Below, in pieces: positions 16,254 through 62,220 of a stretch of DNA of 64,000 bases. Each line of letters starts with the position of its first letter. The stretch's first letter is position 1. Both the position numbers and the translations under genes were made by a program. The notes under the pieces were generated by a model. It ran no database searches. It was not told the DNA's origin and worked only from the letters and a program-made list of their open reading frames with translations. Location of the stretch: positions 62,001 to 126,000 of the forward strand of contig JAHDVF020000413.1 in assembly GCA_022606425.2 (NCBI GenBank). Direction: 5' to 3'. The stretch is from Lepidostoma basale. Lineage: Eukaryota; Arthropoda; Insecta; Trichoptera; Lepidostomatidae.

Positions 16254-16825
16254 ATGTTTCGTTCAAAATCGCCCTTATATTGCATATCACGACTTCTTGG
16301 TATTGCTCCATACTCGATCGTGGTCAATTCGAACACCACACGTTGGAAAACCACAGTTTTATCTTTTCTTTATAGTATTTTTATTTTATTTCTGGTATTG
16401 TTTTGCTGCGTTCCTATTATATGCCAAATCAGATCTATAATTGGAAATAAAGGCATGAATCAAATAGCAAATTATTCTGATACGTGTAGAAGGTTATATT
16501 CTATATCAATTGCTTTCCTTTGCATATTTCTATCTATAAAAAACAGGCATAAAACCTGTGAATTTCTCAACGATTTGGAAGATTTCGACGTGAAAATTTT
16601 CAACGCATGTGCTTCTATGGTGTACGATAAATTTCACAGGCAATGTAAGATGCGCTTATATCTTATAAACGGGCTACTGGGCGTATTCAATCTACTCGAT
16701 ATAGTTTTTTATATGTTAATTCAAAAACACGATACGATGTTTTGGCTGGCTATAGTGCTAACATTCTCTCTATATTTCAACACAGCTTTGGAATTTTCTT
16801 CGTATGTCGAAATGATATATATAAG
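16254..16825 (+). CDS. Gustatory receptor N-terminal exon, cassette 1
   Basis: First and most 5' of fourteen plus-strand receptor exons. 190 codons plus two bases, ATG at 16254, donor ATAAG|GTAAGA. It starts MFRSKSPLYCISRLLGIAPYS, so it lacks a few N-terminal residues compared with MAAVHWSVSPVY in others. The family core RLLGIAPYSIVV, SNTTRWKTT, four hydrophobic segments (about 37-58, 81-99, 127-152, 160-186) and FLSIKNRHKTC are all present. It ends IYIR in phase 2, matching the acceptor at 61794 about 45 kb away. No second or third receptor exon lies between. It is isolated in sequence from the other cassettes, suggesting an old branch. Open throughout. Expression from this distance is inferred. 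Confidence 0.85.
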
Positions 16826-16860
16826 GTAAGAATTAAAAAAAAAAATCATAATAATATAAA

Positions 16861-17085
16861 ACTAACTAACTAACTAACCATCACGCCGTCTCCCCGAAAG
16901 GGTAGGCAGAATGAATGGACTGTCACACTTTTACTGATGCGGCACTCCATCCTTCTCTAACTAACTAATAATAATAATAATATGCTAACTTTTAAAGCGC
17001 CGTTTTTGTAATGTAATCGCCTCAAGGGCGCAATAAGACGTGTTTTAAATCTAAATGTGAACGCTGCATCAGATTGATATTTTTT
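16861..17085 (-). mobile_element. LINE family A end plus CR1-like 3' UTR scrap
   Basis: 16861-16965 is the antisense family A 3' end, beginning in a CTAA repeat and containing a CACTTTTACTGATGCGGC variant shared with 29468-29580. 16968-17085 matches 25955-26085, the 3' untranslated part of the CR1-like element there. Confidence 0.65.
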
Positions 17086-17812
17086 TATTTATTTTTTTGT
17101 ATTTAATTTATTTTTTTAAAAACCCGATTAGGTTATATGGATACATTTTTAGATCTTACTATTAATTATGTTATGTTTCAGATATATTTTATATTGAGTT
17201 GTAGTGACACTCCTTGTGTCTTTTGGTAGTTCATTGTAAAGTTTCAGTTACTGAAAGGCGGCCATGATCGAAGTAGGAACAATCGACGAGCGTGCATGTC
17301 ACGATGTGTGAATGTAGAAGAGGAGCGAGAATTATGCCAGGATAAACCAATGTGGTGATCCATACTCTCTTCCTACCCCTCTGAGGAAACAGCGTGATGG
17401 TTAGTTAGTTAGTTAAGTATACGTTAACAACGTAAACGGACCAAGAAATAGAGCAAGATTTAGGAAATCGTGGCACGATCAAATAAATCAAATATTAAAT
17501 CTCGACCACCTAAGGAGTCGGAGAATTCGACGCGCGTGCATGACAGGATGTATGAATGTTGAGGAAGCGAGAGAAGTATTTCAGGAAAGAACAGTGTGGC
17601 GGTCCATTTTTTCTGCCCCTTCGGAGAGACGGCGGTTTAGTAAGCTTTTTTAATTTTTTTTTATTTAATTTATTTTTTTTAAAACCCAATTGGGTTATAT
17701 GGATACATTTTTAGATCTAACTATTAATTATGTATTGTTTCAGATATATTTTATATTGAGTTGTAGTGAGATTCCTTGTGTCTTTTGGTAGTTCATTGTA
17801 AAGTTTCAGTCC
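17067..17812. repeat. Direct repeat of about 165 bases around LINE copies
   Basis: TTAGGTTATATGGATACATT, CAGATATATTTTATATTGAG and CTTGTGTCTTTTGGTAGTTC occur at 17090-17244 and again at 17640-17812. The first copy is probably a duplicated or re-inserted end of the element that follows at 17812. Two sense family A pieces fill the gap. Confidence 0.7.
17245..17640 (+). mobile_element. Two consecutive LINE family A 3' ends
   Basis: The first (17245-17412) ends with a GTTA repeat near 17400. The second (17413-17640) restarts at NVNGPRNRARFRKSWHDQIN and runs to the CTTCGGAGAGACGGCG end. Both are short and decayed. Confidence 0.65.
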
Positions 17813-18105
17813 ATTGTTCAATATCCTTGATTGTCCTGTCTTAGTACGTGCATTCGGTAAGTGATATCTGTCACAGTTCCTGGTCCAGTGTCTCTTTCGT
17901 CTGAATTTTTAGTTAATTTGTAGCTGCTGTCTGTTGTCTTTTCCATGGTCACTCTGTGTACAATTTCCAATGTCTCAAATTTGGTCAGGTCTGATATGTC
18001 CATTTGTTTTGTTTGTCTGTAAACTTGTAAACCCAACCATGTAAGGTAGTTAATGTTGAATGCTAATTTTATTATTTTATTTTGTTGTCGTTGGCTTAGT
18101 TAAGT
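17813..18105 (-). mobile_element. Unclassified LINE fragment
   Basis: A 72-codon minus-strand frame (LQVYRQTKQMDISDLTKFET and so on) follows the 17640-17812 repeat. The repeat context suggests a retroelement, but no diagnostic motif is present. Confidence 0.35.
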
Positions 18106-18109
18106 TATT

Positions 18110-18512
18110 TTAATGGTCTCAGTATGTGTGGTAGAACGATGTACGACAGAATCTCAAATGCTGATATTTGGAAGGAATGTAGAGCGAAAGAAGGTATTAT
18201 GAACAAAATTATGAAAGGTTCGCTGCATTGGTTCGGACATATGGAGCGCATGGCTGAAGAAAGAATGGTTAAAAAAGTATACGTTAACGATGTAAATGGA
18301 GTAAGGAGTCGAGGTAGACCGAGGAAAACATGGCATGTCCAAATTAATCAAATATTAAAGGTTGGTCATGTCAGAAGCCGGAAGAATCGACGCGCGTGTA
18401 TGACTCGATGTATGAATGTGGAGGAAGCTAGAGAGGTATGTCAGGATAGAGTAGTGTGACGGTCCATTCTCTCTGCCTACCCCTGCGGGGAAACGGCGTG
18501 ACGGTTTGTTGT
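18110..18512 (+). mobile_element. LINE family A 3' fragment
   Basis: Open for 111 codons: MCGRTMYDRISNADIWKECR, GSLHWFGHMERMAEER, RGRPRKTWHVQINQIL, RRACMTRCMNVEEAREVCQD. It ends with a GTT repeat rather than GTTA. It lies 200 bases upstream of cassette 2. Confidence 0.8.
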
Positions 18513-18702
18513 TGTTGTTGTTGTGTCAATATTATGATGTTAAATAATCGGGAAAGTATTTTAATTAAAAAAATAGAAACGATGTATTCCTTTCATTATA
18601 CATACAGTAGATTAATTACAATCAATTAAATTAATGTATTTATTAAATTGGGAGTTATGCTAAGAAATTCATTAGATTCTTTTGTTTTAAGTAGTCGACA
18701 AA

Positions 18703-18714
18703 CGCGTCAACAAA
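18703..18714 (+). promoter_or_regulatory. Conserved leader block CGCGTCAACAAA before cassette 2
   Basis: Lies directly before the ATG at 18715. The same block (CGCGTC, one variable base, ACAAA) precedes cassettes 3, 5, 6 and 7. It could be a translation-start context or a proximal promoter element kept through duplication. Confidence 0.5.
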
Positions 18715-19298
18715 ATGGCTGCCGTGCATAGATCGGTATCGCTCGTATACAACGTTTCTCGACTATTTGGTATCGCTCCTTACTCTACCGTTGTCGAAGA
18801 TAATAAGACTCATTGGAAAGTTACCAAGATTTCTATACTATATGTTTTTTTCGTTATAATTCTTTTATTGATCGGTTTGTTTCCAATCTACCAGCATATT
18901 TCTGTATATGATCTTGAAGATGGCCATGAAAACAACATTGCTTTACAATCAAACATGATAAGAAGAGCGAGTTCGGTTGTCACTACTTTCATTTGCATTT
19001 TCGTTTCGCTGAAGAATAGATATGTGACATGCAGCTTCATGAATGGTTTGCGCGATTTCGATGTGGAATTGATCAACAACGGAATGAATGTGGACCACGA
19101 AGGAGAGCGCAAAGTTATTCTGACCCGTTTCGCTTCTATCTATGTCCTGTTTACGATCACAATGGTCTTAGATTTTATTTTCTACGTCTTCATGCGATCG
19201 AAGAAGCTGCTGTTTTGGCTAGCCGTTGTCTTAGTCACTACCATTTTTTTTTTCACCATAATTCAGTTCTCCGCTTTTGTTGTGCTGTTGCTATCAAG
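18715..19298 (+). CDS. Gustatory receptor N-terminal exon, cassette 2
   Basis: 194 codons plus two bases, donor TCAAG|GTGAGT, phase 2. MAAVHRSVSLVYNVSRLFG is followed by IAPYSTVVEDNKTHWKVTKI, the hallmark of the largest cassette group (2, 3, 5, 6, 7). Membrane segments lie at about 39-60, 83-101, 133-158 and 166-190, with a VSLKNRYVTC phrase after segment 2. It ends LLSR. The exon is open and in strong start context (ACAAAATGG). The intron frame that continues past the donor has no receptor similarity. Role: candidate ligand-selecting half of a receptor once joined to the shared exon at 61794 (inference). Confidence 0.88.
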
Positions 19299-19639
19299 GT
19301 GAGTCTTAACCTGTCTGGTAGTGTGCCAGTATTGTTGCGTTTACAAATAATGTGTCATTCAATATATTATCGAATACCAAACGATACTGACATCTGTGAA
19401 CGTTTGTTAGAAGTTTTTAGCAATGTAACTATAATACCGACGGAGTAAATCACTTTTAAAATATTACGTGACGTCATCACTATCATGTTACTTGTCAACC
19501 TTTTAATGTCAGTCTACGATTTATATTTCACTAGTTGTTTGAGTATAATCAAAACATAATTAAACTCAAACATTAGTATAAATTCAATTACTTAAGTGAA
19601 ATCATTATTATGAAATTATTTAAATTATGAAATTATATC

Positions 19640-19785
19640 ATGTTGGCCAGAGAAATCGACGCGCATGCATGACACGATGTATGAATGTTGAGGAAGCGAG
19701 TGAAATATGTCAGGAAAGAAAAGTGTGGCAGTCCATTCTTTCTGCCTACCCCTTCGGGGAGACGGCGTGACGGTTAGTTAGTTTT
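19640..19785 (+). mobile_element. LINE family A 3' end
   Basis: Sense RNRRACMTRCMNVEEAS region to GGGGAGACGGCGTGACGG and GTTAGTTAG. About 145 bases. Confidence 0.7.
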
Positions 19786-19794
19786 TTATTATTA

Positions 19795-20097
19795 TTAACA
19801 CTAATAAAAACTAATCATCACACCGTCTCTCCTGGAGAGGAGGCAGAAATAATAGACCCCCATACTGTTCTATCCTGACATACTTCTATCGCATCCTCTT
19901 CATTCATACATCGTGTCATGCACGCACGTCGATTTCTCCGACTTCTCACGTGACCGACATTTAATATTCACGTCGTTCACATATACCTTATTCACGATTC
20001 TATCTTCATTCATTCTTTCCATGTGTAAACCATCTTAACGACCCTTTCATTTTTTTTTTTCGCTTCACTTCCATACTATAAGTACTTGGTACAAATA
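19795..20097 (-). mobile_element. LINE family A 3' fragment
   Basis: Antisense copy from the CATCACACCGTCTCTCC end to about 20097. It faces the preceding sense copy tail to tail. Confidence 0.65.
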
Positions 20098-20408
20098 ATG
20101 GTGTTATGAAAGGATCATTAAGATGGTTTGGACACATGGAAATAATGAATTAAGAAATAATGGTCAAAAAAAGTATATGTTAACGATATAAATGGAACTA
20201 GAAATAGGGAAGACCGAGGAAAACGTGGCACGATCAAATAAATGAAATATTTAATGTCGGCCACACGAGGAGTTGGATAAATCGACGCGGGTGCATGACA
20301 CGATGTATGAATATGAGGGAAGCGAAAGAAAAATGTCAGGAAAGAAAAGTGTGGCAGTCCATCTTTTCTGCCTACTCGTTCGGATAGACTGCGTGATGGT
20401 GTGAGTAA
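20098..20408 (+). mobile_element. LINE family A 3' fragment
   Basis: Sense piece beginning NGVMKGSLRWFGHMEIMN and ending with CTTCGGATAGACTGCGTGATGG. Head-to-head with the copy before it, so 19640-20408 is a run of three alternately oriented fragments. Confidence 0.65.
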
Positions 20409-20564
20409 GAAGAAGATGTTATCCTTGATATTTTTCGACTTCAATGTTCCATTCATCTCTTCAGTTTTATATTACCTTTTTGAATTTTTTTTTTATGAAT
20501 TTGGATAACTATAAAAAAAAGTGATTTATTGTTTAAGAAACAATTAATCACTCTTGTATTTATA

Positions 20565-21405
20565 ACTAACCATCACGCTGTTTCATCGGAGGGGTAAACG
20601 GAGAGGATGGACCGCCATACCGTTCTGTCCTGACATACCTCTCTAGATTCCTTCACATTCATATATCGTAACATGCATGCTCGTCGATTTTTCCGACTTC
20701 GAATGTGGCCGCCTTTTCGTATTTGATTAACCCTTACCACTCCTTTGTCGAATGCCAGCCGACATCGCTATATGTACGCTACAACTCAGTTATCGGCTGG
20801 CAGCTGACAAGATAAGACTTGCGCGCGCGGTGTATTTATTCGATAAGACGGTGCGCAACACTTGACTTTCTTGTGATATTCGTTAAAAAAAACATTTAAT
20901 TTCACGTTTAAATAAGATTTTGACTGATTTCTGCAAATTCACATAACCTAAAATGGCGGGAACTTGGCGTAATACGTCATGCAGAGGAGCGATTAGAATA
21001 CAAGCCCCACTTCATTGCGAAACCGGACAAACGTTCTAAAGACTGTACTGTGTGCAGTAACAGAAAGATTTCAGGGGGAAGACGAGAAACAGTGTGGTTT
21101 TGTGAGACCTGTTCCAGAAAACCTGGTCTCCATCCTGGAGATTGTTTTAAAAAGTACCATACTATGCAAAACTATAAATAATCATTACGAATGAATTTTT
21201 AACGATTTTTTTTGTAATTACCTATCAATAAAAATATTTTGACATTATTTAAATGAGAGTTGGCTGACAAACAATATCTAAAAATAATGGAGTGGTAAGG
21301 GTTAATTTGGTCATGCCATGACTTTGGTCTTCCACGGCATCTCTTTCTACTCACACTGCTTGTATACAACATTTAAACCATTCTTCTCTCGTCCATTCAG
21401 ATAAA
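20565..21405 (-). mobile_element. LINE family A 3' fragment, split by a piggyBac-type element
   Basis: Antisense LINE from AACTAACCATCACGCTG (20570) to TTTGA at 20726. It resumes after 21305 with TTTGGTCATGCCATGAC and continues to about 21405. Other copies read TTGATTAATTTGGTCATGCC without interruption, which shows the empty site. Confidence 0.8.
20727..21305 (+). mobile_element. Short piggyBac-type element with transposase C-terminus
   Basis: Flanked by TTAA (20727-20730 and 21302-21305) and bounded by perfect inverted ends CCCTTACCACTCC and GGAGTGGTAAGGG. Inside, the plus strand encodes KDCTVCSNRKISGGRRETVW, then FCETCSRKPGLHPGDCFKKY, the cysteine-rich zinc-binding C-terminal domain of piggyBac-like transposases (about 21040-21180). 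The catalytic DDD domain is absent. TTAA targets and this Cys-rich tail are established piggyBac features. About 579 bases with the duplications. Confidence 0.9.
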
Positions 21406-21677
21406 TTAAGTAAACTTAAAATGGTTGACAACATCTGTAAGACAGTCCGTAGAATTTTGTTTAGTACGGACATAATAAATTTGTATTAATTATCATAATT
21501 ACGTTTATAATATAATTGAAAACTCATTTAACATGTCAAATAATACTTAAATTATTTTTAATGTAAACGCAATTAATATTATGTGTCAAATCCATTACTA
21601 ATTGAACAAATTTAAAATGGTTTATTTAATTTCGGTGAAAAATATGTTCGATGTATAATTTGAAATCGTAGAAAAAT

Positions 21678-21689
21678 CGCGTCTACAAA
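21678..21689 (+). promoter_or_regulatory. Conserved leader block CGCGTCTACAAA before cassette 3
   Basis: Same position relative to the ATG as in cassettes 2, 5, 6 and 7, with T at the variable base. Confidence 0.5.
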
Positions 21690-22273
21690 ATGGCCGCCGT
21701 GCACTGGTCGGTATCGCCCGTATATCACGTTTCTCGACTCGTTGGTATCGCTCCTTACTCTACCGTTGTCGAAGATAATAAGACGTATTGGAGAGTTACT
21801 AAGATTTCCGTTTTATATGTTATTTTTATTATTTTACTTCTATTTGTCGGTTTGTTACCGATATCTCAACATATTTCGCAAGTTGATTTCGAGAGTGGAC
21901 ATGACGACTGGCTCTTATTAGATTCCAATGCATTTAGAAGGATTATTTCGATTTTAACTGGTTTCTTTTGCATTTTCATGTCGTTGAAGAATAGACAATC
22001 GACTTGTGATTTCATGAATAGTTTGCGCGTCTTCGATGTACAATTGAACAACAACGGAATGTTCGTTGACTATGGAAAAGCGCGCCGAATGATTTTGATC
22101 CGTTTCGGCTTTATCTATGGTCTTTTGATAACCACAATATTCGTAGATTTAATTGTTTATGTCATTATGCGAAAGAAGAAGTTTATGTTTTGGATTTTTG
22201 TTATTTCGTTCATAACAATATTTTATTTTTCGATAATGCAGTTCTCTGCTTTTGTCATGCTGTTGCACTCGAG
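21690..22273 (+). CDS. Gustatory receptor N-terminal exon, cassette 3
   Basis: 194 codons plus two bases, donor CTCGAG|GTGAGT, phase 2. MAAVHWSVSPVYHVSRLVG, then IAPYSTVVEDNKTYWRVTKI. Segment 1 is at about 39-60, segment 2 at 83-101 (SILTGFFCIFMSLKN), segment 3 at 133-158 and segment 4 at 166-191 (ending FVMLLHSR). It differs from its group by RVFDVQLNNN where the others read RDFDxxLN. Open. The first 80 bases of the following intron are still alignable with those after cassettes 5, 6 and 7 (TTGTAGC.TAGAAAGACAATG), so the duplicated unit reached beyond the donor. Confidence 0.88.
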
Positions 22274-23335: not shown

Positions 23336-23339
23336 ATCT

Positions 23340-23783: not shown

Positions 23784-24404
23784 ATGCGTTTTGGTATTAA
23801 GCCAGTAAAAAAATGGTCTAAAGTAGCCCCAATATATTGGACGGTTTCGCCTATATATAAAGTTTCTAGACTATTTGGTATCGCTCCCTACTCTTTGATA
23901 GTCAAATCGAATACAGCGCAATACAGAGTGTCAAAATATGCAATTTTCTACACGATTTTAATAACTTTAATTTTGACTATATCTTTCTTATTCGTTTTAA
24001 GACGAGTAGTGATCATAAATCATAATGATAAAAATAAAATAGCACTCTATTCGACATTATTTAGGAGAATTGGTGGAATTTTCACAGGATTTCTTTGCAT
24101 TTTCCTGTCATTAAAATATAGGAAAAAATCTTGTAATTTTTTAAATAATCTTCGGGATTTTGACGACACTCTAAAATCTAAAAGGATCGCTTTTGTTCAC
24201 AATAAATCATACAGAATAAATTTTGTATCAGTTTGGGTCGTTTATTTTTTTCTTACATTTTTTTTTATCAGTAGATTTCATTTGCTATGTCGTTGTATAT
24301 CGACTTACGAAATTTGCTTATTGGATAATTCTCATATCATTTGTTCTAATCTTCTCAACGGTGGTTATACAGTTTAATCTACTCGCTCTGATGATATATT
24401 CGAG
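23784..24404 (+). pseudogene. Gustatory receptor N-terminal exon, cassette 4, frameshifted
   Basis: Starts MRFGIKPVKKWSKVAPIYW and has RLFGIAPYSLIVKSNTAQYR, closest to cassette 8. Coding is intact to HNKSYRINFVSVWVVYFFLT, then a run of nine T (24258-24266) shifts the frame. In the next frame the family sequence resumes (LSVDFICYVVVYRLTKFAYW to LALMIYSR). Eight T would restore agreement, so the change is one extra T, either a true lesion or a homopolymer error. Three more signs suggest decay: the internal Met used by cassette 8 is lost (tgg instead of atg), the donor AG|GTATCT is weak, and a LINE lies right before the start. Confidence 0.8.
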
Positions 24405-26704: not shown

Positions 26705-27288
26705 ATGGCCGCTGTGCACTGGTCGGTATCGCCCGTGTATTACGTTTCTCGATTGTTTGGTATCGCTCCTTACTCTACCATTGTCGAAGATAATAAGACG
26801 CATTGGAGAGTTACTAAGATTTCCGTTTCATATGTTATTTTTATTATTTTTCTTCTATTTGTCGGTTTGTTTCCGATATACCAATATATTACTGGACATT
26901 ATAATGAGAGCGAACACGAAAACTGGCTCGTTATAATTTCTAATAATTTCAGAAGGATCAGTTCAGTTTTAACGGGGTTTCTTTGCATTTTCATGTCGCT
27001 GAAGAATAGATACTCGACCTGCGATTTCATGAATTGTTTGCGCGATTTCGATACAGATTTGAACAGCAACGGGATGTTTGTCGACTATGGAAGGGCTCAT
27101 AGAAATAATTTGATGGTTTTCGGATTTATCTATTCCCTCTTAATGAGCACAACGTTCATAGATTTAATTATTTTCATCATATTGGGAATGAACAAGTATT
27201 TCTTTTGGCTTTTCATTATTTCGTTCATAATAATATTTTTTTGCTCAATATTTCAGTTCTTGGCTTTTGTCCTGCTATTGCATTCAAG
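26705..27288 (+). CDS. Gustatory receptor N-terminal exon, cassette 5
   Basis: 194 codons plus two bases from ATG at 26705, donor TCAAG|GTAAGT, phase 2. An in-frame ATG at 26681 (LINRVNK extension) exists, but the downstream ATG aligns with all other members and has the ACAAAATGGCC context. MAAVHWSVSPVYYVSRLFG, IAPYSTIVEDNKTHWRVTKI, MSLKNRYSTCDFMNCLRDF, and ending LLLHSR. The first loop reads GHYNESEHENWL, unlike the VDLENG of cassettes 6 and 7, so the outer loop between segments 1 and 2 is where this group diverges most. Open throughout. Confidence 0.88.
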
Positions 27289-27747: not shown

Positions 27748-28742
27748 TTAACTAACTAACTAACTAACTAACCATCACGCCGTCTCCCCGAAGGGGTAGG
27801 CAGAAAGAATGGACTGCCACACCTTTCTTTCCTGACATATTTCTCTCGCTTCCTCAACATTCATACATCGTGTCATGCACGCGCGTCGATTTCTCTGACT
27901 CCTCACATGGCCGACATTCAATATTTGATTTATTTGATCGTGCCACGTTTTCCTTGGTCTTCCTCTATTTCTGGTTCCATTTACATCATTAACATATAAT
28001 TTTTTTACCATTCTTTCTTCATTCATTCTTTCCATATGTCCAAACCATCTTAATGATCCTTTCATTATTTTGTTCATGACACCATCATTCGCACCGCATT
28101 CACTTCTTATATTTTCATTCGACACTCTATCATACACAGAATATCCACACATTCGTCTAAGAGATCTCATTTCTACTGCATTTATTCTACTTTCATCCTT
28201 CCTTTGCCAGTTCCATGCTTCGCTTCCATACATAAGGGTCGGTAGAAGAACACCATTGTGCACTGCCATTCTAGCTTTTTGGATAGGTTTTTGTTTGCGA
28301 TGACAACTTTAAGTGCACCATTCACTTTGTTGCCTGCCCCAACCCTTCTTTCAATATCCCTCTCCACTCTCCCATCTCTTGTAAACATACTACCTAAATA
28401 CACAAACTCAACTACTTGCTCCAAATTTTCACCATTCACGCTAATGTTGCAGACTGTCATGGTTTCTTCCTTTTCAAAAATCATTACCTTGGACTTATTA
28501 ACATTCATCATCAGATCATTTCGCATGCATACCTCATACATACAATTCACCAGGACTTGTAGTTCATGCTCGTTGTCAGCAAGTAGGACAGCGTCATCCG
28601 CATACAAGAGACAGCTTACTGACACTCCGCTCATTTTGGCACCTACATCCAACCCTTTCAGCTCTCTCATACAATTGTCCATATACAGATTAAATAACCA
28701 CGGGGACATTACGCAACCTTGTTTGACACCTTTATTGATACT
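27748..28742 (-). mobile_element. LINE family A, longest reverse-transcriptase copy
   Basis: Minus strand from 28742: NKGVKQGCVMSPWLFNLYMD (RT motif with QGxxxSPxLF), CLLYADDAVLLADNEHELQ (catalytic YADD), NGENLEQVVEFVYLGSMFTR. After a one-base shift near 28265 come LPTLMYGSEAWNWQRKDES, SVYDRVSNENIRSECGANDG, RGRPRKTWHDQINQILNVGH and the ending LSAYPFGETA. The 3' end is a CTAA (GTTA) repeat at 27748-27772. 5'-truncated, but the best reference for this family here. Confidence 0.85.
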
Positions 28743-29027
28743 ATTAAGTTAATGGAATTCACTATTTAAATGTGTTCTTATATTTCCTTTAAATAGTGCA
28801 ATTTATGATGTATTAAAATGATCAAATATTATGTAAAATAATTGTATAAAGCAACAAAATTTTCATGGTGTAAAATGTTTTAGTTTTAAGTCAATTTCCT
28901 GTTCTGTTTTCTAAAGGTCCATAATTATTTTATATGTAACTTATCCCTTCTGTCCCATAATGAGTTTTCTACTCATGGGAATACAATGTAACTATTGTAT
29001 GTTTATAAATAAATAAAAAAAAGTATC

Positions 29028-31078: not shown

Positions 31079-31662
31079 ATGGCCGCCGTGCACTGGTCGG
31101 TATCGCCCGTATATTACGCTTCTCGACTCGTTGGTATCGCTCCTTACTCTACCATTGTCGAAGATAATAAGACGCATTGGAGAGTTACTAAGATTTCCGT
31201 TTTATACGTTGTTTTGATCATTATTTATTTATTTATCGGTTTGATTCCGATATGCCAATATATTGCGCGAGTTGATTTAGAAAACGGGCCCGAAAATTGG
31301 CTCGCATTATATTCAAATGTATTCAGAAGGATAAATTCGATTTTAACTGCGTTTCTTTGCATTTTATTATCTCTGAAGAACAGATACTCGACGTGCGATT
31401 TCATGAATAGTTTGCGCGATTTCGATACAGATTTGAACAACTATGGAATGTTTGTCGACTATGGAAGAGGGTTCAGAATTAATTTGATGGTTTTCGGATG
31501 TATCTATTTCTTCTTAACAGTCACAATGTTCTTGGATTTAGTTCTTTCCGTCATACTGCGAACGAAGAAGTTTACCTTTTGGCTTTTCATTGTTTCGTTC
31601 ATAACAATATTTTATTTTTCCATAATAGAGTTCTCGGCTTTTGTCCTGCTTTTGCACTCAAG
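31079..31662 (+). CDS. Gustatory receptor N-terminal exon, cassette 6
   Basis: 194 codons plus two bases from ATG at 31079 (an in-frame ATG at 31055 is less likely). MAAVHWSVSPVYYASRLVG, IAPYSTIVEDNKTHWRVTKI, loop ARVDLENGPENWLALYSNVF, segments 1-4 as in its group, donor TCAAG|GTGAGT. Open. It and cassette 7 differ at only about 13 of 194 residues and share flanks on both sides, so they are the youngest duplicates in the array. Cassette 6 has unusual changes at otherwise conserved sites (LSVILRTKK where others read LYVIL, and IIEFSAF instead of IIQFSAF). It may be relaxing or adapting. Confidence 0.88.
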
Positions 31663-34424: not shown

Positions 34425-35008
34425 ATGGCCGCCGTGCACTGGTCGGTATCGCCCGTATATTACGCTTCTCGACTCGTTGGTATCGCTCCTTACTCTACCA
34501 TTGTCGAAGATAATAAGACTCATTGGAGAGTTACTAAGATTTCCGTTTTATATGTTGTTTTGATTATTATTTTTTTATTTATCGGTTTGATTCCGATATG
34601 CCAATTTATTGCGCGAGTTGATTTAGAAAACGGGCCCGAAAATTGGCTCGCATTATATTCAAATGGATTCAGAAGGATAAATTCGGTTTTAACTGCGTTT
34701 CTTTGCCCTTTTTGATCTCTGAAGAACAGATACTCGACGTGCGATTTCATGAATAGTTTGCGCGATTTCGATACAGATTTGAACAACTATGGAATGTTTG
34801 TCGACTATGGAAGAGGGTTCAGAATTAATTTGATGGTTTTCGGATGTATCTATTTCTTCTTAACAATCACAATGTTCTTGGATTTAGTTCTTTACGTCAT
34901 ACTGGGAACGAAGAAGTTTATCTTTTGGCTTTTCATTGTTTCGTTCATAACAGTATTTTATTTTTCCATAATACAGTTCTCGGCTTTTGTCCTGCTTTTG
35001 CACTCGAG
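34425..35008 (+). pseudogene. Gustatory receptor N-terminal exon, cassette 7, nonsense codon
   Basis: The exon matches cassette 6 over its full 584 bases, including start and donor (CTCGAG|GTGAGT). A TGA at 34713-34715 interrupts the second membrane segment: FLCPF, stop, SLKNR, where cassette 6 reads FLCILLSLKNR. The frame after the stop is the same, with no indel. Four of the eight bases at 34707-34714 differ from cassette 6 while neighbouring bases are identical, which looks like one complex mutation event. Elsewhere cassette 7 keeps consensus residues that cassette 6 has lost, so it stayed functional until recently. The transcript would encode only about 96 residues. Confidence 0.88.
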
Positions 35009-38799: not shown

Positions 38800-39413
38800 T
38801 TGGCTATCCATTGTGTCAAAAAAATGTCTAAAGTGCCCTCAATATACTGGTCAATATCACCAATATATAATATCTCTCGAGTTTTTGGTATCGCTCCTTA
38901 CTCTTTGATAACAGAATCGAATATCACGCGATTCAGTGTATCTAAATTTGCAAATGCGTACACAATTTTCATCATTTTTATTTCATCTTTCGGTTTCGTG
39001 TTCGATCAGAGAAAAATGGTCATGAACACCGAAATTCATGAAAATATAATAGCGCTTTACTCCACATTGTTCAGGAGAATTGGTGGAATTGTAACAGCAT
39101 TCTCATTTATTATCTTGTCTCTAAAAAACAGGCACAAGTTTTGTCATTTCTTTAACAGTCTCCGGGATTTTGATGATACTTTGAAATCTAGAGGGATCAT
39201 TGTTGAATATAACAAATCGTATAGATTGAATTTGATTTCAGTTTGTGTGGTCTATTCTATTTTGATATTTTATCTATTGGTAGACTTCATTTGCTATGTG
39301 GCTATATTTCAATATACGAAATTCACATTTTGGATCCTCCTTCTCTTCGCGTGTTTAATCATTTCTGCGACAGTTGTGTATATTAATTTGCTCGTTCTAA
39401 TGATATATTCAAG
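38800..39413 (+). CDS. Gustatory receptor N-terminal exon, cassette 8
   Basis: 204 codons plus two bases from ATG at 38800, or 196 from the ATG at 38824 (AAAATGTCTAAAGTG), which better matches the usual start position. SIYWSISPIYNISRVFGIAP, YSLITESNITRFSVSKFA, segments 1-4, LSLKNRHKFC, SLRDFDDTLKSRGI, ending LVLMIYSR with donor TCAAG|GTAAGT in phase 2. Closest to the broken cassette 4 (shared VPSIYW or VAPIYW, KFC or KSC, DDTLKS). Open and with a strong donor, so it appears to be the living member of that pair. Confidence 0.86.
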
Positions 39414-41345: not shown

Positions 41346-41932
41346 ATGTCACTGTTTTATCAGTCAATTCTACCAGTTCATCGCGTTTGTCGACTTTTTG
41401 GTATCGCTCCTTACTGCATCTGTGTCGAATGCGATACCGCGCACTTAAAAGCGACGAAAGCGTCATTTTTCTACTCGATTTTTATCGCTTTTCTTTCGTT
41501 GACTTGCTTCGCGGTTGTTGTGTTGTTTGTTGGACTTTTCGATGTGGGAAACGAACGCGAAAATTTTATAGAGAAATATTCTACACTTTGTAGAAGAATG
41601 ATTTTGATTGGTTTAGAGTTTCAATGTATTATTCAGGCGCTAATTAATAGGCGTAAAATGATTATTTTTATAAATGGAATGCGAGATTTTGATGTTCTAA
41701 TGAATTTCAACGGTTTGTTTGTTAACTATAAAAAATCTTACAATTTTAATTTACTTTGTATGTTTTCCGTATATGTTTTACTGCTTTTATTTCTTACGGT
41801 GGAATTTGTATTTTATGCATTAGTTTTACGTAAAAAAAAGATGCTTTTTTTGTTAATTATTATGTTTTCAGTTTGTGTTTTTTCTTCAACGATTATTGAA
41901 TTTTCGGCTTATGTTATTATGATTAATACAAG
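41346..41932 (+). CDS. Gustatory receptor N-terminal exon, cassette 9
   Basis: 195 codons plus two bases, donor ACAAG|GTAAGA, phase 2. MSLFYQSILPVHRVCRLFG, IAPYCICVECDTAHLKATKA. After segment 1, VGLFDVGNERENFIEKYSTL, and after segment 2, ALINRRKMIIFINGMRDFD in place of the usual LKNR.xTC. It ends IMINTR. Groups with cassette 10 only. No family A-type leader block precedes it. The ATG is the first in frame after a stop, and the aligned start of cassette 10 supports it. Open. Confidence 0.87.
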
Positions 41933-48328: not shown

Positions 48329-48915
48329 ATGTCCCAGGTGTACCGATCAATTCTACCAGTATATCGCATTTCTCGACTGTTTGGTATCACGCCTTACACA
48401 ATCTCATTTGAGAACGATACCGCGCACTTGAAAGCGACGAAATCGTCAATTATTTACCCGATTTTTATCGCTTTTCTTTGTTTGATCGGTTTCGTTTTTG
48501 TTTTTTCTTTTGTCGGACTGTTTGATGCTGGAAACGAACATGAAAATTTCATAGAAAAATATTCTACTCTTTGTAGAAGACTCACAGTGATTGTCATAGA
48601 GTTTCAATGTATCATTCAATCGCTTATAAATAGGCGTAGAATGTGTGATTTTATTAACGGCTTACGCGATTTCGACTCTAAACTGAATTCCTACGGTTTA
48701 TTAGTTAATTATAAAAAATCATATAGGTTTAATTTATTTTATATGCTTTCAGTATATTCTTTACTGTCTGTTTGTTTAACAATCGAATTTATATCGTATG
48801 TTTTGATTTTACGAAAGAAAAATTCATTTTATTGGGTGATTCTTGTATTTGCAGTGTGTGTTTTTTATATAACTATTATAGAGTTTTCAGCTTACGTAAT
48901 GATGATGAATTCAAG
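48329..48915 (+). CDS. Gustatory receptor N-terminal exon, cassette 10
   Basis: 195 codons plus two bases, donor TCAAG|GTAAGA, phase 2. MSQVYRSILPVYRISRLFG, ITPYTISFENDTAHLKATKS (the usual IAPYS is ITPYT here). Loop VGLFDAGNEHENFIEKYSTL and SLINRRRMCDFINGLRDFD, ending MMMNSR. Sister of cassette 9 about 7 kb upstream. The two share the diagnostic ILPV, DTAHLKATK and EKYSTL stretches. Open. The frame that overlaps the donor (48772-49089) is not coding for a receptor. Confidence 0.88.
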
Positions 48916-51256: not shown

Positions 51257-51835
51257 ATGTCCCCATTATTTCGGTCAATATCACCTGTCTATTATATTAC
51301 CCGACTGTTTGGTATCGCTCCTTATTCGATCGTGGTCGAAGCTGGTATCGCTCGTTGGCAAACGACAATGGTATCTGTGCTCCACAATTTATTGATCATA
51401 TTATTTCTACTGCTCGGTATTATACCCACAGTGAAGCATATACATGTTGAGGTATTTTGATTTTGGGAAAGCCATTACAAATTACTTGTTAATATTTAGA
51501 AGGTGCAGCGCATACTTCACTTCAGTGGTTTGCATACTGCTTTCGCTTTACAACACGAATAAAATTTGCGTTTTTTTCAACGTCTTGAATGATTTTGATA
51601 AAGACTTGTATGAAAACGGAATACGCGTGTGTTACTCGTTAGAACGTAGGAGGAACAAGAGATTTATCTATTCTATTTACTTCATTCTTTTCATTGTGAT
51701 TTTTGTCGATTTTTATTTTTACGTCATAATTCGCTTGAAACCTTGGGACTTCTGGATAGCTACTGCGCTTAATTTTTGTATTTTTTATACAACAGTTATT
51801 GGGTTTTCTGCATTTGTTTTGATGATTCATTCAAG
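51257..51835 (+). pseudogene. Gustatory receptor N-terminal exon, cassette 11, frameshifted
   Basis: ATG at 51257 aligns with other starts: MSPLFRSISPVYYITRLFG, IAPYSIVVEAGIARWQTTMV. Coding runs to KHIHVEVF, where a TGA (51458-51460) follows a run of four T (51455-51458). In the next frame the receptor continues without other lesions: FGKAITNYLLIFRRCSAYFT, FVDFYFYVIIRLKPWDFWIA, ending VLMIHSR with donor TCAAG|GTAAGT. Three T would give a continuous frame of 192 codons plus two bases, the expected phase. Either a true one-base insertion or a homopolymer error. The rest of the exon looks constrained, so I keep this possibly functional. Confidence 0.78.
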
Positions 51836-54015: not shown

Positions 54016-54021
54016 AGCTAA

Positions 54022-54704: not shown

Positions 54705-55285
54705 ATGGCCGCCGTACACTGGTCAATATCACCCGTTTATTACGTTTCTAGATTATTTGGTATCGCTCCTTACTCTATAGTGGTTGAGGCAAATACCACG
54801 CGTTGGAAAGTTACGAAACCATTTGTGGCGTACAACTTGTTTGTGATTATTTTACTAGTTTGCAGTTTATACCCGATTACCCGACAAATTATATATAACA
54901 TATGGTTTGGAAATGATAATATACTAGCAGCATATTCCACGTTTTTAAGGAGACTAAGTGGAATCTTTACTGCGTTACTTTGCGTTGAATTATCTTTCAA
55001 AAACAAGTATAAAACATGTGATTTTTTGAATCGCTTGAGTGATTTTGACATCTATTTAAGCGGGATGAATGTCACAATAGATTATAAACGGTTTCACCTG
55101 CTAAATACTTTATCAGTTGGTTTCGTCTGTGTACTGCTGGGGTTGTTTGTTCTAGTTGATTTCATTATCTTCGTACTAAACAATTCGACACCATTGGATT
55201 TCTGGTGTGCTAGTGTTTTCGTGTTTTGCTCCTTTTACTCAACAATTATGCAATTTTCTGCTTTTTTAATGATGGTTTATTCAAG
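54705..55285 (+). CDS. Gustatory receptor N-terminal exon, cassette 12
   Basis: 193 codons plus two bases from ATG at 54705, donor TCAAG|GTATGT, phase 2. An upstream in-frame ATG at 54606 would add 33 residues without family similarity. MAAVHWSISPVYYVSRLFG, IAPYSIVVEANTTRWKVTKP, LSFKNKYKTCDFLNRLSDFD, SGMNVTIDY, segments 1-4, ending LMMVYSR. Forms a group with cassettes 13 and 14 (ANTT.W.VTKP, SFKNK.KTC, GMN.TIDY), the block nearest the shared exon. Open. Confidence 0.88.
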
Positions 55286-55977: not shown

Positions 55978-56549
55978 ATGATCGCTGTGCATCGGTCAAT
56001 ATCACCCGTGTATTACGTTTCTCGAATATTTGGTATCGCTCCTTACTCTACTGTGAATACCACTCATTGGAGAGTTACGAAACCAGATGTGGTCTACAGC
56101 TTATGCATGATTATTTTAATGATATATGGCATATTCCCGATTATTCGACACGTGCAACAGAGCATAACACTCGTGAATGACAATAAATTAGAAATTTATT
56201 CTACACTAATAAGGAGAATGAATTCTCTCTTCACTTGCTGGCTTTGCATTTTGCTGTCTTTCAAAAACAAGCATAAGACTTGTGATTTTCTTAATCACTT
56301 GGGAGATTTCGACATTCGCTTAAACGGGATGAATGTTACCATAGATTATGGAAGACATCGCCGGCTGATTGCATTATCTGTTGGAATTATCTATGGACTA
56401 TTGGCATTATTTTTTTTTATTGATTTTATTATTTACGTACTAATCCGCATGAGACCTTTGGATTTCTCTGGTATAACAGCTCTTGTTTTTAGTATTTTTT
56501 ATTCCACGATAATTGAATTTTCAGCTTTTCTATTAATGATTTATTCAAG
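55978..56549 (+). CDS. Gustatory receptor N-terminal exon, cassette 13
   Basis: 190 codons plus two bases, donor TCAAG|GTGAGT, phase 2. MIAVHRSISPVYYVSRIFG, IAPYSTVNTTHWRVTKPDVV. Compared with cassettes 12 and 14 (YSIVVEANTT, YSIVVAANTT) it lacks three codons just after IAPYS, an in-frame deletion. YGIFPIIRHVQQSI, LSFKNKHKTCDFLNHLGDFD, GMNVTIDYGRHRRL, ending LLMIYSR. Sister of cassette 14, sharing VVYSLCMIILMIYG or VAYSLCMIILMIYG. Open, and otherwise normal. Confidence 0.88.
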
Positions 56550-56574
56550 GTGAGTTAATTTGTATATTATTATT

Positions 56575-56959
56575 TTTTTCTTCTTCTTGCTGTGTCCTGT
56601 CAGGTCTCCCTAACGTTGACTATCACCCTTGAGTCACAGTGATGACCTGGGGGAAAATATCCTGAGTGGTATCCTCTGGAGAATTTTCTGTCGGGGTTAC
56701 CTTCCCTTAGCTGGGTGTATCCAGTTTTATGGCGCTGGAAGCTCGCCATTCGTCCTCCATCTGATATGGCACTAAGTAATATGTGCCACATTTCCCGGGG
56801 TTCGCGGGGTCTTTAAAAAGACCTCTCGTGGACGCTAGAGAGTTGGACTTGATAGTGTTGCTGTTGTAAATGCAACATGGCGCCTTACGACATTTCGTAG
56901 AGGCATATTTTCCAGCAAAACATACCCCATCGTAGCCCTACTACCCTTTTGAACCCCTT
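56575..56959. other. Unrecognised, possible transposon remnant
   Basis: Opens with antisense family B 3' wording (CTGTCAGGTCTCCCTAACGT) to about 56635, then unrelated sequence with no frame or motif that I can name. Confidence 0.4.
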
Positions 56960-57390
56960 CTTCTTTAATACACAGAAATCATGTCTCGTCGCATGATGAG
57001 GTCAAGCTGTCCTTCCATCACTTAGGCGGTCTTCCAGGTTAGCGGTGTCCGGAGGGGATTTCATAAGCGGCTGTATATGCAAGTCCATCACCATCCATTC
57101 GGGCTACATGGTCCCTCCAGTATCTTCTTTTGGATCTACTCCACTGAACGATATCCTCTATTTCGCAAGCTTTTCTTATATCTACGTTGCGGACACGATC
57201 TCGGAGAGTTTTCCAGTAATTTATCTTAGGACCTTCATCTCCGATGTTCTTAGTAGTCCCTTGGTTCGCACAGTGTCGCACATGATAGGTCGCACGCATG
57301 TTTTATAAATTCTGATCTTGCTGTCGATACGCACGTGCTTGTTCTTCCAGACCAGTTTTTTTAGACATCGCGATACGGCAGACACTTTAT
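56960..57390 (-). mobile_element. LINE family C fragment
   Basis: Minus strand: KINYWKTLRDRVRNVDIRKA, CEIEDIVQWSRSKRRYWRDH, VARMDGDGLAYTAAYEIPS, with shifts at both ends. Confidence 0.7.
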
Positions 57391-57394
57391 TGAC

Positions 57395-58440
57395 TTCTTC
57401 TTATTCTTCTTCAGCCTATTCCCGTCTACTCCTGGACAAAGGCCTCCTCCATTCGCTTCCATGTCACTCTGTCCTGTGCAGACTGCATCCAGGTTATTCC
57501 GACGTGTCTGTTCAGGTCATCTTTCTACCGTAGTTGCGGTCGCCATGCACTTCTTTTTGCCGTCCACGGTCACCAAGTCAGCAGTCTTTTTGTCCACTTT
57601 TCATCTAAGCTTCTGGCTACGTGACCCGCCCATTGCCATTTTAGAGTCGCCACCCGGTGGATGATGTCAGTGATCCTTATACTCTCTCTCACCGTATCGT
57701 TTCTGACTCTGTTTCTTAGGCTTATTCCTAACATGTCTCTTTCCATGGCTCTTTGGGTCACTCGCAGTTTCTCGGCACTTTGTTTGGACAATGTAACAGT
57801 TTCAAGACCATAAGTACCAACTGGCAGAACGCAGGCTTCATAGACTTTTCGTTTCAGGTTGATCGGTATTTTCCGGTTTTTAAGGATGTAACTCATGTTG
57901 CCGAAAGCTGCCCAGCTTAGTCCAATTCTTCTTTTTAGCTCTGCGGTTTGCTTATCTCGGCCCAATCGAATATTGTGTCCCGGGTAATTATATTCTTCTT
58001 CTTCTTTCCGTGTCCTGGCAGGTCTCCTCAATGTTGACTATCACCCTTGAGTAGGCCTCCCTGTCGTGGGCAGCTCAGAACAGCTCCTCCACGGTCCTCA
58101 GCCCTTTCTACTCTCGGGTGTTCCTCAGTCAGGAAACCCGCCTTCTCCCAACACCTCGTCGACCCTCAATCTTACCCTCCAAGATCAGATTCAACAGTGC
58201 GTACTTTTCGCCTCTCAGAACATGTCCCAAGTAGGACACTTTACGGACTTTGATGTTACTCAGCAACTCTCTGTCAACTCTGGCTCTATGGAGATGGTTT
58301 GTGTTGCTGACCATGTCAGTCCAGGAGATGCGTAACATCCTTCGGTGTATCCACATCTCAAAGGCCTCTAACGCCTCTAATTATATTCTTGGACATTCTC
58401 AATTCTGTTGCCATCCACGTTGATTTTGTCTTGTTCTACA
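57395..58440 (-). mobile_element. LINE family D, split by a family B LINE
   Basis: Minus strand: INVDGNRIENVQEYN near 58390-58440. After the insert it resumes with YNYPGHNIRLGRDKQTAELK, GNMSYILKNRKIPINLKRKV, YGLETVTLSKQSAEKLRVTQ, DIIHRVATLKWQWAGHVARS and the C-terminal part to about 57405. Removing 57998-58390 restores a continuous element. Confidence 0.82.
57998..58377 (-). mobile_element. LINE family B inserted into family D
   Basis: Minus strand: MWIHRRMLRISWTDMVSNTN, VSYLGHVLRGEKYALLNLIL, GRRGVGRRRVS, ending with a GAAGAAGAAG tail. Flanked by the 13-base duplication TAATTATATTCTT (57985-57997 and 58378-58390). Confidence 0.85.
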
Positions 58441-58677
58441 TATATTAAAGTTTTTTTAAAATAATTAGTGTGAAAAAAATGATTAACCCACATATACTGG
58501 ATACATAAAGTTTTTATATAATACAATATCTTAATTATGAAAATGAATTAACGTCTTATGATTAATTAATAATTATCGATTAGTTTTAAAACACCATTAT
58601 TAATTTTCTCTTTGTACAGAATAGATACATTTCGGCATTGGGTGTTGACCTGGCGACAATTTGCGCTGGATTTCAAA

Positions 58678-59258
58678 ATGGCCGCCTTTCATAGGTCAAT
58701 AACACCCGTGTATTACGTTTCTCGATTGTTTGGTATCGCTCCTTACTCTATAGTGGTCGCGGCGAATACCACTCATTGGAGAGTTACGAAACCAGATGTG
58801 GCCTACAGCTTATGCATGATTATTTTAATGATATATGGCATATACCCGATTATTCGACACGTGCAACAGAGCATATCATTCGATGATGATAATCAACTTG
58901 CAATGTATTCTACATTGATAAGAAGAATGAACTCGCTTTTTACTTCATGGCTTTGCATATTTCTGGCTTTCAAAAACAAGTATAAAACCTGTGATTTATT
59001 TAATCGCTTGAGAGATTTCGACATTTCCTTAAACGGGATGAATGCCACTATAGATTATGGAAGACATCGCCGGCTGAATGTCTTATTGGTTGGAATTGTC
59101 TATGGACCAATAGCGATATTTTTTACAATCGATTTTATAGCTTACGTGATTCTCCGCATGAGAGATTTTGATTTCTGGGTTATAACTTTTTTTGTTTTTA
59201 GTATTTATTACACTACCATAATAGGGTTTTCGACTTTTGTGACGATGATTTATTCGAG
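58678..59258 (+). CDS. Gustatory receptor N-terminal exon, cassette 14
   Basis: 193 codons plus two bases from ATG at 58678 (an in-frame ATG at 58612 is less likely), donor TCGAG|GTGAGT, phase 2. MAAFHRSITPVYYVSRLFG, IAPYSIVVAANTTHWRVTKP, YGIYPIIRHVQQSI, LAFKNKYKTCDLFNRLRDFD, GMNATIDYGRHRRL, ending FVTMIYSR. It is the last cassette, 2.5 kb before the shared second exon, so it is the default first exon of the locus. Joined to 61794-62220 it keeps frame: MIYS, Arg (split codon), FKILNNQIKN. Open. Confidence 0.9.
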
Positions 59259-59436
59259 GTGAGTTATAATGTAGGACATTTGATAACGTTTCAGCAAGAC
59301 GAAACATCTCAATCCCATAAAATATAATAACATTTGTTTAAAAACATCTCTATTTTGGGCTACTTCTAATAGGTTTCTCAACTCTCTACATTCCTGTCAA
59401 TTATTGGATGGAATTGTCCTCATACTCCGTATCCCG

Positions 59437-60340
59437 AACAACTGCCTTCTGCAAATTCCCCCCGACCCATCTTGCCAATAATTATTACCTGAAGGAGGTG
59501 GTATTTTTCTACCCTTAGCACACGACCCAAATATGAGAGCTTTCTAACCTCCACACTTAACAACAGCTCTCTATTGGCTCTGGCTCTCTGTAGTCTTCTT
59601 ATTCTTCTTCTTTGCTAGCCTTCTACCCTCCACTGCTGGATATAGGCCTCTTCCAATTTCCTCCACTCGTCTCTATCCTGCCCCCTTTGTATCCAAGATT
59701 TTCCAACCCTTTTGATAATATCATCGGTGGCCTTCCGACACTTCGCCTATTTGCCCATGGTCTCCAACTGAGTATCCTGGGTGCCCATTTGTTGCCACCT
59801 TGTCTAGCCAAGTGTCCAGCCCATTGCCATTTCAATTTTGTCACTCGGTCCATGACGTCAGCAACCCTGGTGCGGCGTCTGATTTCTTCATTTCTTATGC
59901 GGTCATGCAAGCTCACACCAAGTATCTGTCTTTCCATGGACCTCTGTGTACACTTGAGCCTTTGGACACTTTTTGCTGTAAGAGTTGTCGTCTCTAGTCC
60001 GTATGTCATCATGGGCAGTATACACATGTCGTAGAACTTTCTTTTGAGTCCAACCGGTATTTCACCATTTTCAAAGACATGTCTCAGTTTACCAAAGGTG
60101 GCCCAACCCAGTATCTCTGTAGTACGCCTACATTACTGAACTTATCGGTCCACGGCATACGAAGCATTCTGCTGTATATCTACATCTTAAACGCCTCCAA
60201 CTAGTTCATTACATTCACTTTCAGTGCCTAAGTTTCATAGCCACATAGCTGAACAGACCATATATAACATTTAACTATTCTTTGTCGGAGTTTCGGGTTA
60301 AGATTATCGTCGCAAAGAAGGTTCTCATTTTATTAAATGC
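59437..60340 (-). mobile_element. LINE family B, split by a family F LINE
   Basis: Antisense family B at 59437-59594 (the GEKYHLL to ANRELL region) and again at 60114-60340 (VDRFSNVGV, MNELEAF and the YMVCSAMWL region). Removing 59595-60123 joins the halves. Confidence 0.75.
59595..60113 (-). mobile_element. LINE family F inserted into family B
   Basis: Minus strand: LPMMTYGLETTTLTAKSVQR, RSMERQILGVSLHDRIRNEE, IRRRTRVADVMDRVTKLKWQ, AGHLARQGGNKWAPRILSWR, RRSVGRPPM, then a small deletion. Target duplication TCTCTGTAGT (59585-59594 and 60114-60123). The tail is GAAGAAGAATAAGAAGA. Confidence 0.82.
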
Positions 60341-60589
60341 GGCCAAGTTTCGCAGCAATTTAAACTATATTACAATTTATACTGCCACATTCTTATATCC
60401 TGACACGCCTATCTGGATTCCTCAAAATTAATACATCGTATCACGATACTCGTTGATTGCATTGACTTCGCTAAAACTTATTATAAGTATTATTTTATTA
60501 TGATTGGATGTTTTTTTCCCCTTTTTCGGTTCATTGACTTATATCCGACTTATCCGACTTTTATTCATAAAAACAACATTTATTGAGAT

Positions 60590-61067
60590 ACAATTAAATG
60601 ACACTAATCCCCTTCAAAGTAGTCCCCTTGAGCTGCTGCACACTTCTCCCAACGGTTCTGCCACTGCCGGAAGCAATGCTGGAAAGACTCTTTTGGTATG
60701 GCCAGCAGGTGGTCCGTCGCAATGTTCATGATGTCTTCCCTGGTCTGAAATCTAGTCCCATTCAAAGGCATTTTCAGCTGGGTTAAAAGCCAGAATTCAC
60801 AGGAAGCGATTGGGATCATTGATCACAGTCTCCAGCATGTCCTGTGTGATCTCCACACGAAATTGCTTCTGTTCAATTGTCAGCAACTTTGGCAGAAATT
60901 TTCCTGAGACCTTTCTGAGGGCCAAATCTTCAGTTAAAATGGAATGAATGGATCCAACACTAATGCTCGCTTCATCAGCAAGTTCTCTGATCGTTGTTCG
61001 ACGATCCTGCATCACCAGGGTCCTTACTTGATCAATGACAACATCATTTTTGTTTTTTGTCATCATC
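60590..61067 (-). mobile_element. Mariner transposase remnant, catalytic core deleted
   Basis: Minus strand from 61067: DQVRTLVMQDRRTTIRELAD, ISVGSIHSILTEDLALRKVS, KFLPKLLTIEQKQFRVEITQ, DMLETVINDPNRFL, then directly CEFWLLTQLKMPLNGTRFQT, IPKESFQHCFRQWQNRWEKC and AAQGDYFEGD. The central part with the catalytic aspartates is absent. Same family style as 32476-32772, which is only an N-terminus. Confidence 0.8.
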
Positions 61068-61069
61068 AA

Positions 61070-61245
61070 CCTCATTTGTGGTCTTCCTACGCTTCTTCTC
61101 GTGTCTCTCGGTCTCCGATTCAGCAGTATTTTGGTCCATCTTTCGTCTGCAGCTCTAGCGACATGCCCTGCCCATTTCCATTCTAAAGTCGTCACCCGGT
61201 GGATCATGTCTGTGACTCTTGTTTTATCCTTCACCGTTTCGTGAT
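61070..61245 (-). mobile_element. LINE family D-like scrap
   Basis: Minus strand: ETVKDKTRVTDMIHRVTTLE, WKWAGHVARAADERWTKILL, RRSVGRPQMRLM. It joins the mariner remnant with no spacer. Confidence 0.65.
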
Positions 61246-61249
61246 TTTG

Positions 61250-61350
61250 GTAGAATTCACGTGACATTCGTTATAATTCACGTGACATTCGGTAGAATTC
61301 ACGTGACATTTGGTAGAATTCACGTGACATTTGGTAGAATTCACGTGACA
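61250..61350. repeat. Minisatellite of about 21 bases with CACGTG boxes
   Basis: Five units of GTAGAATTCACGTGACATTTG and variants between 61250 and 61350. Each carries TTCACGTGACA, so five palindromic CACGTG E-boxes are evenly spaced. It ends 440 bases before the shared receptor exon. Its open frame (HVTFGRIHVTFGR) only reflects the repeat. Confidence 0.9.
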
Positions 61351-61499
61351 ATAAAAAGGCGATATACTAGCTATCTACAACATGTCATGAGAATCAATTG
61401 CAAAAAATCGTATGTTTTCATTGGGTTCAAATAACCTGTAAACTATCACATTAATGGCATAAGTAGCATTCTAAGAACCAGCATAGATAATTTTTTTTT

Positions 61500-61605
61500 T
61501 TTTTTTTTTTTAAAAAAAAAGACTAATATCAAGGATTTACATCAATGATATTAGAATTTATTTTACAATCTTCAATGTGAGCAGAAAATAGCTCATTATT
61601 ATGAA
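61500..61605 (-). mobile_element. SINE body fragment
   Basis: Antisense match to 54235-54290: AGCTATTTTCTGCTCACATT, then a body and a T/A-run (61491-61520). The tRNA head is missing. Confidence 0.55.
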
Positions 61606-61793
61606 GAAGGAATCTGGACTAATATAAGTATTCTACTAGAAAAATAGGACTCGAAATGCGCACGTGCGTATCGAATGACGGTCGATATAGAAGAGAATTG
61701 ATCTAAGTCAACTGTTCGCAGAGTTATTGCGGGCGTATCATCGAATAGAGCCGTTCTACGTTATAATTAATAAATGTTTTATTTTTATTCCAG

Positions 61794-62220
61794 ATTCAAG
61801 ATACTTAACAACCAAATTAAAAACATTTCCGACTCGCTGGTCAAGAAAAAGACACGCCAGTCAAACCTTTGGGTCACAAAACAGAGTAATTCTAACAGGG
61901 TCCGTTCGACGGAATCCAAAATCGTAAAATTTAATCCAAAAACAAAGGCGAATCAAATTGGAGACATTTGCAAGATGCATGATAGGTTATGCGAACTTGG
62001 AAAGATGTTGAATGAGCTGTACTCCAAACAGATACTGACCACCACAGGAATAGCGTGCGTCATGGTTGTGATTCAACTCTACATTTTCTATCTCATCATA
62101 AAGCAGGATCTCATGAACGAGCCCATAATCCTCAAGGCTTGGAACGCCTCTGTATGGGGTTCGTGGTACTTTTCCATGATTTTGATCACCTCGATAGTTT
62201 GCTCAAAAGCCACGTCAGAG
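61794..62220 (+). CDS. Gustatory receptor shared exon 2
   Basis: The only plus-strand second exon found in the window. Acceptor TTTTATTCCAG ends at 61793. The first base A completes the AG left by each cassette, giving Arg, then FKILNNQIKNISDSLVKKKT. 427 bases, ending SEV-type junction ACGTCAGAG|GTACGT at 62220 (phase 0). It encodes the intracellular loop, GDICKMHDRLCELGKMLNEL, YSKQIL, segment 5 (ACVMVVIQLYIFYLII) and segment 6 (ASVWGSWYFSMILITSIVCS). Structure, length and phases match exon 2 of the minus-strand gene (10545-10107). The expected last exon with TY.....QF was not found in 62221-64000 and probably lies to the right. A frame starting at ATG 61774 is an artefact, as that ATG lies in the polypyrimidine tract. 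All fourteen cassettes are in phase with this exon. Confidence 0.92.

Follow-up and report, generated by a model that had tools for sequence, protein, structure and literature searches.

Gustatory receptor (GR) genes in which many long alternative first exons are spliced to a common 3' end have been described in beetles, cockroaches and flies, and the locus that we report here, from the caddisfly Lepidostoma basale, is a new case of this known layout. In Tribolium castaneum Gr214, three shared 3' exons accept splices from 30 long alternative 5' exons (PMC6307266), and the variant counts given for the beetles are 30 for Gr214, 17 for Gr99 of the longhorn beetle Anoplophora and 13 for Leptinotarsa Gr48 (PMC6720082). 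In the cockroach Blattella germanica, several long first exons of Gr60a-m lead into three shared final exons, which are called short, to give 13 intact receptors, and within the GR set of that species at least some such splices have RNA support (PMC6175461). Drosophila Gr39a is described as a locus of exon gain, exon loss, pseudogenes and purifying selection, in which the shared exons supply the seventh transmembrane segment and the large exon the other six, and whose exon copies are more numerous in some other species than in D. melanogaster (PMC2204066); across the three D. melanogaster loci Gr39a, Gr23a and Gr28b, two, four and five proteins are reported. The stretch of 64,000 nucleotides that we analysed, hereafter the window (assembly GCA_022606425.2, contig JAHDVF020000413.1, here C1013:62001-126000 of a 769 Mb assembly), contains 14 tandem GR first exons, 11 of them open, upstream of one set of three 3' exons, and we consider it highly probable, judging from the DNA sequence, that these make up one GR gene with eleven predicted receptors.

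We liken this locus to Gr214 by layout, not by sequence: both combine long alternative 5' exons with three shared 3' exons, 30 alternatives there and 14 (11 open) here. An initial annotation of the window had called it a large version of the Drosophila design, and the array of 14 bears out its size, but both Gr214 and Anoplophora Gr99 exceed it. Blattella Gr60 has the same layout, with shared exons that are short there, whereas exon 2 is long (427 bp) here. Drosophila Gr39a, Gr23a and Gr28b likewise join alternative large exons to shared 3' exons, but Gr39a divides the protein before the seventh helix and the caddisfly locus divides it about half way. The elements of the array are given below in window numbering (first exons by tblastn and donor check, c1 and c6 also by Pfam 7tm_7).

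16254..16825, plus strand: c1 first exon, open, GR N-terminal half, donor AAG/GTAAGA, phase 2
18715..19298, plus strand: c2 first exon, open
21690..22273, plus strand: c3 first exon, open
23814..24404, plus strand: c4 first exon, broken
26705..27288, plus strand: c5 first exon, open
31079..31662, plus strand: c6 first exon, open
34425..35008, plus strand: c6b first exon, TGA-bearing copy of c6, donor consensus-like
38824..39413, plus strand: c7 first exon, open
41346..41932, plus strand: c8 first exon, open
48329..48915, plus strand: c9 first exon, open
51257..51835, plus strand: c10 first exon, frame change, donor consensus-like
54705..55285, plus strand: c11 first exon, open
55978..56549, plus strand: c12 first exon, open
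58678..59258, plus strand: c13 first exon, open, nearest to exon 2
61794..62220, plus strand: shared exon 2, 427 bp, acceptor TTCCAG (phase 2 in), donor GTACGT (phase 0 out)
63384..63452, plus strand: shared exon 3, 69 bp, ANKSSTLLHQITNLNMNRLSKTS, phase 0 on both sides, flanked by TTTTAG and GTAAGT
65432..65593, plus strand (C1013:127432-127593), 1.4 kb to the right of the window: shared exon 4, TYLVFFIQF and stop

Six-frame reading together with tblastn identified the 14 plus-strand exons, between 16254 and 59258, as encoding N-terminal halves of GRs (Pfam 7tm_7). The initial annotation had credited all 14 with their own ATG and a phase 2 end; the number of exons stands, but ATG and frame do not hold throughout, as the whole exon is open in 11 of 14 and a consensus-like donor is present in 13, with c4 as the exception. 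Every open cassette has its own ATG, in an AAAATG context in 9 of the 11, and runs open into a phase 2 donor, and the eleven donor positions given in that annotation coincide exactly with the last bases of these exons. The c4 cassette combines a frame change with the weak donor GTATCT and, by eye, has a tryptophan codon at the position of the ATG in c7, its closest relative, with an alternative in-frame ATG upstream at 23784; c6b has a single in-frame TGA. Identity among the open cassettes ranges from 33 to 75% (median 39%), and when they are divided into bins of 15 residues, positions 61-75 are the most variable and positions 16-30, which contain FGIAPYS, the most conserved. All six receptor pieces scanned exceed the Pfam 7tm_7 cut-off (the c6 half alone scores 35 bits and exon 2 alone 49 bits) and the cassettes match one another, which excludes a chance origin.

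Joined to exons 2 to 4, all 11 open cassettes give in-frame products of 409-415 amino acids with a single terminal stop. The c5 product, the one spliced isoform scanned against 7tm_7 (PF08395), scores 191.2 bits against a cut-off of 26.6 and spans profile positions 2-369 of 370. Residues 11-408 of its 413 also match solved GR chains (E 7e-8 to 2e-6), namely 8zdz, labelled Gustatory receptor, and two sequences labelled Gr43a. The junction of exons 1 and 2 in this isoform lies at residue 195, aligned to residue 202 of 8zdz, so that the shared part comprises 218 of the 413 residues (53%). Introns of up to 45 kb had been proposed at the outset, and the longest implied here is 44,968 bp (16826-61793). 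The exon bearing TY.....QF, sought by the initial annotation to the right of position 64000, is found there as exon 4, whose TYLVFFIQF we take to be the C-terminal TYxxxxxQF motif of insect GRs.

The window contains exactly one plus-strand exon 2, at 61794, and no second or third exon among the cassettes, both as first claimed: between the cassettes, tblastn (E 0.01) detected no relative of exons 2, 3 or 4, and profile hidden Markov models (HMMs) detected none of exon 2 or 4 at E <=0.1. Even with the exons of the array excluded from model building, the profile HMMs recover exon 2 at 4.8e-40 and exon 4 at 4.4e-35, and reach relatives as distant as the GR pieces on another contig, C406. Searches of the whole assembly, in which exon counts are lower bounds, found exon 2 once (runner-up 43%) and exon 4 once (runner-up 88%, from the neighbouring gene C). 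Over the 134 kb of C1013:42001-176000, which were read without encountering a single N, there are 18 first exons to five copies each of exon 2 and exon 4; a low-complexity first-exon match at 129995-130120 (E 0.0009, with an internal stop) was left out of the 18.

Six relatives in the same genome, genes A to D on C1013 and genes E and F on C767, are built one-to-one: every one of them pairs a single first exon with a single exon 2 and exon 4, and exons 1 and 2 lie about 1.1-2.2 kb apart. Genes B, C and D lie further right on C1013 than gene A. Gene A, which did not figure in the initial account, is a complete four-exon GR gene on the minus strand (5758-12227), arranged head to head with the array, and serves as a structural control; its parts are as follows.

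11668..12227, minus strand: gene A exon 1
10107..10545, minus strand: gene A exon 2
7470..7538, minus strand: gene A exon 3
5758..5919, minus strand: gene A exon 4, TYLVFFIQF and stop

Exon 3, likewise absent from the initial account, has counterparts in genes A, B, C, E and F; none was found in gene D under the pattern used for the other genes.

In an unrooted maximum-likelihood tree of 21 first-exon sequences, with c4 and c10 entered as partial sequences, all 14 cassettes fall on one side of a branch with support of 99/99, and genes A-F together with a caddisfly relative (seven sequences) fall on the other. Duplication of first exons within one gene is, given this grouping, the most likely way in which the array grew. 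The youngest duplicated unit is represented by c6 and c6b, which are 90% identical from about -320 to +677 relative to the ATG; this unit comprises upstream DNA, exon and donor and does not include exon 2. In older cassette pairs the main aligned block extends at most from -76 to +662, with one extra weak upstream match beyond it in c8 and c9.

The cassettes are under purifying selection in the pairs open to testing. We computed the ratio of nonsynonymous to synonymous divergence (dN/dS) for 136 pairs and report the 21 with dS <1.2, ten of which are pairs of open array cassettes. In these ten, dN/dS is 0.27-0.55 at a dS of 0.30-0.94, or roughly 0.15-0.47 per lineage, and Fisher tests on six of them give p values from 0.01 to 1.5e-11; the one-to-one pair B/C has a dN/dS of 0.30. 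Of simulated neutral frames that start with an ATG and take no indels, 25% remain open at 0.05 substitutions per site, 7% at 0.1 and 1% at 0.2.

A shared 3' end is supported at the level of sequence, with the splice junctions inferred, because the 3' exons are single in the assembly, the relatives are one-to-one, the 11 open frames are compatible, the cassettes group in the tree, purifying selection acts in the testable pairs and the duplicated unit lacks exon 2. The proposal of the initial annotation that alternative first exons feed one shared 3' end thus agrees with what the single exons 2 and 4, the one-to-one controls, the frames and the tree would be expected to show. Several observations weigh against it. 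Three of the 14 cassettes (c4, c6b and c10) are broken; c1 and c7 have no pair with dS <1.2 and so lie outside the selection test; and a scan for initiator-like and TATA-like words upstream of 12 ATGs revealed no common core-promoter pattern. The comparison of c6 with TGA-bearing c6b is a weak contrast, with a dN/dS of 0.91 on just 17 changes (p 0.77), and c6b against the older cassettes c2, c3 and c5 gives 0.37-0.50, similar to the open cassettes. The assembly could be incomplete, and a second contig carries part of the locus: C1018:716001-746000 holds blocks 94-99% identical to C1013 around gene A and c2, with the stretch bearing c1 missing, and includes second copies of gene A (dN/dS 1.23 against the first, on 8 changes) and of c2 without an exon 2 matching that of the array. 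These blocks suggest either another haplotype of the region or a segmental duplication that includes an orphan first exon, and the copies mean that there is haplotype or assembly trouble at the locus. In favour of the model, on the other hand, the c2 exon is better conserved between the two contigs than its flanks, with 2 mismatches in 584 positions against 41 in about 1,860 (p 0.0016).

Three other explanations were considered. That c13 alone yields a receptor, the other 13 cassettes being decaying first exons of gene duplicates stripped of their 3' exons, is very unlikely: the three broken cassettes fit such decay, and the c2 copy on C1018 demonstrates that orphan first exons do arise, but 11 of 14 frames are open although the testable pairs have reached divergences at which few simulated neutral frames stay open, dN/dS in those pairs is 0.27-0.55, donors are kept in 13 of 14 and neither tblastn nor the profile HMMs found remnants of 3' exons between the cassettes. 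The point that eleven open cassettes argue against dead duplicates, made from the start, is upheld by both frames and dN/dS. The short distance from exon 1 to exon 2 in the six relatives would lend itself to the idea that each cassette is a separate gene whose private 3' end lies nearby, very diverged or missed; we give this almost no credence, as leave-out profile HMMs recover the array exons strongly and find nothing between the cassettes at E 0.1. It is extremely improbable that the ratio of many first exons to one 3' end is an artefact in which collapse or a gap removed real 3' exons from the assembly. The near-identical blocks shared by C1018 and C1013 are what lends this idea some substance, yet the 134 kb contain no N, a traceless loss of 13 exon sets while every first exon stays is unlikely, and the tree places all seven one-to-one or outside sequences apart from the cassettes. 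On this evidence we reject gene decay, hidden private exons and assembly loss alike.

Under the shared-3'-end model, each open first exon would be spliced singly, across an intron of 2.5 to 45 kb, to the common exon 2, and the products would be eleven receptors with differing N-terminal halves and a common C-terminal half. Separate promoters, one upstream of each cassette, probably drive transcription: about 300 bp in front of the ATG belong to the youngest duplicated unit, and no open cassette lacks an ATG of its own. The transcript of a cassette would then splice past all later cassettes to 61794. The later cassettes would offer no competing acceptors if they start with untranslated sequence and carry no 3' splice site. 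Promoter choice would then set which receptor a neuron makes. In line with what is known of GR structures, the pore helix and the cytoplasmic assembly region would presumably lie in the constant half. As the last transmembrane helices and the TYxxxxxQF end belong to the common half, ligand specificity would probably vary between isoforms, with pore and assembly surface unchanged. A bolder version, which we offer as speculation and think rather unlikely to be right in full, is that the locus may act as a modular receptor generator in which the ligand-facing half is swapped and the pore and assembly half kept constant, that the eleven isoforms may co-assemble freely into mixed tetramers, and that duplication of a promoter with half a receptor may be this lineage's route to enlarging this part of its taste repertoire.

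The sole match to a named protein is a 'putative gustatory receptor 28b' of the caddisfly Arctopsyche grandis, which shares 39% identity with the c5 isoform and 45% with gene E; here 'Gr28b' is the National Center for Biotechnology Information (NCBI) name of this one caddisfly relative and not a tree-based statement of orthology with Drosophila Gr28. Its exon 4 end is similar, and in the tree it sits with E and F, both one-to-one genes, and not among the cassettes; a second, alignment-based protein search returned the same protein and two unnamed ones. Among the titles listed in searches of the caddisfly GR literature, none concerned such a locus, and the available text of a paper on antennal caddisfly receptors, which lists 9 GRs for Rhyacophila nubila, does not contain the word stem 'alternative splic'.

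Elsewhere in the assembly, further large clusters of long GR first exons, matching Pfam positions of about 2 to 300, lie at C109:669435-885004, C185:12174-153640 and C154:847785-968356; 30 kb of C109 contain six first-exon-like frames of at least 325 codons, with five exon 4-like matches (E <0.01) lying among them, and GR pieces also occur on C406. Within the window, reverse transcriptase fragments of retroelements (PF00078) lie at 28182-28748 on the minus strand and 12790-13383 on the plus strand. These account for both of the Pfam matches among the eight non-receptor open reading frames scanned, and the other six have none.

The locus provides a clear added case of taste receptor diversification through duplication of first exons, with one-to-one relatives adjacent to it as internal controls. 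Receptor counts in such genomes need exon-aware annotation, as a count of genes would return either one gene or fourteen truncated ones at a locus for which we predict eleven receptors.

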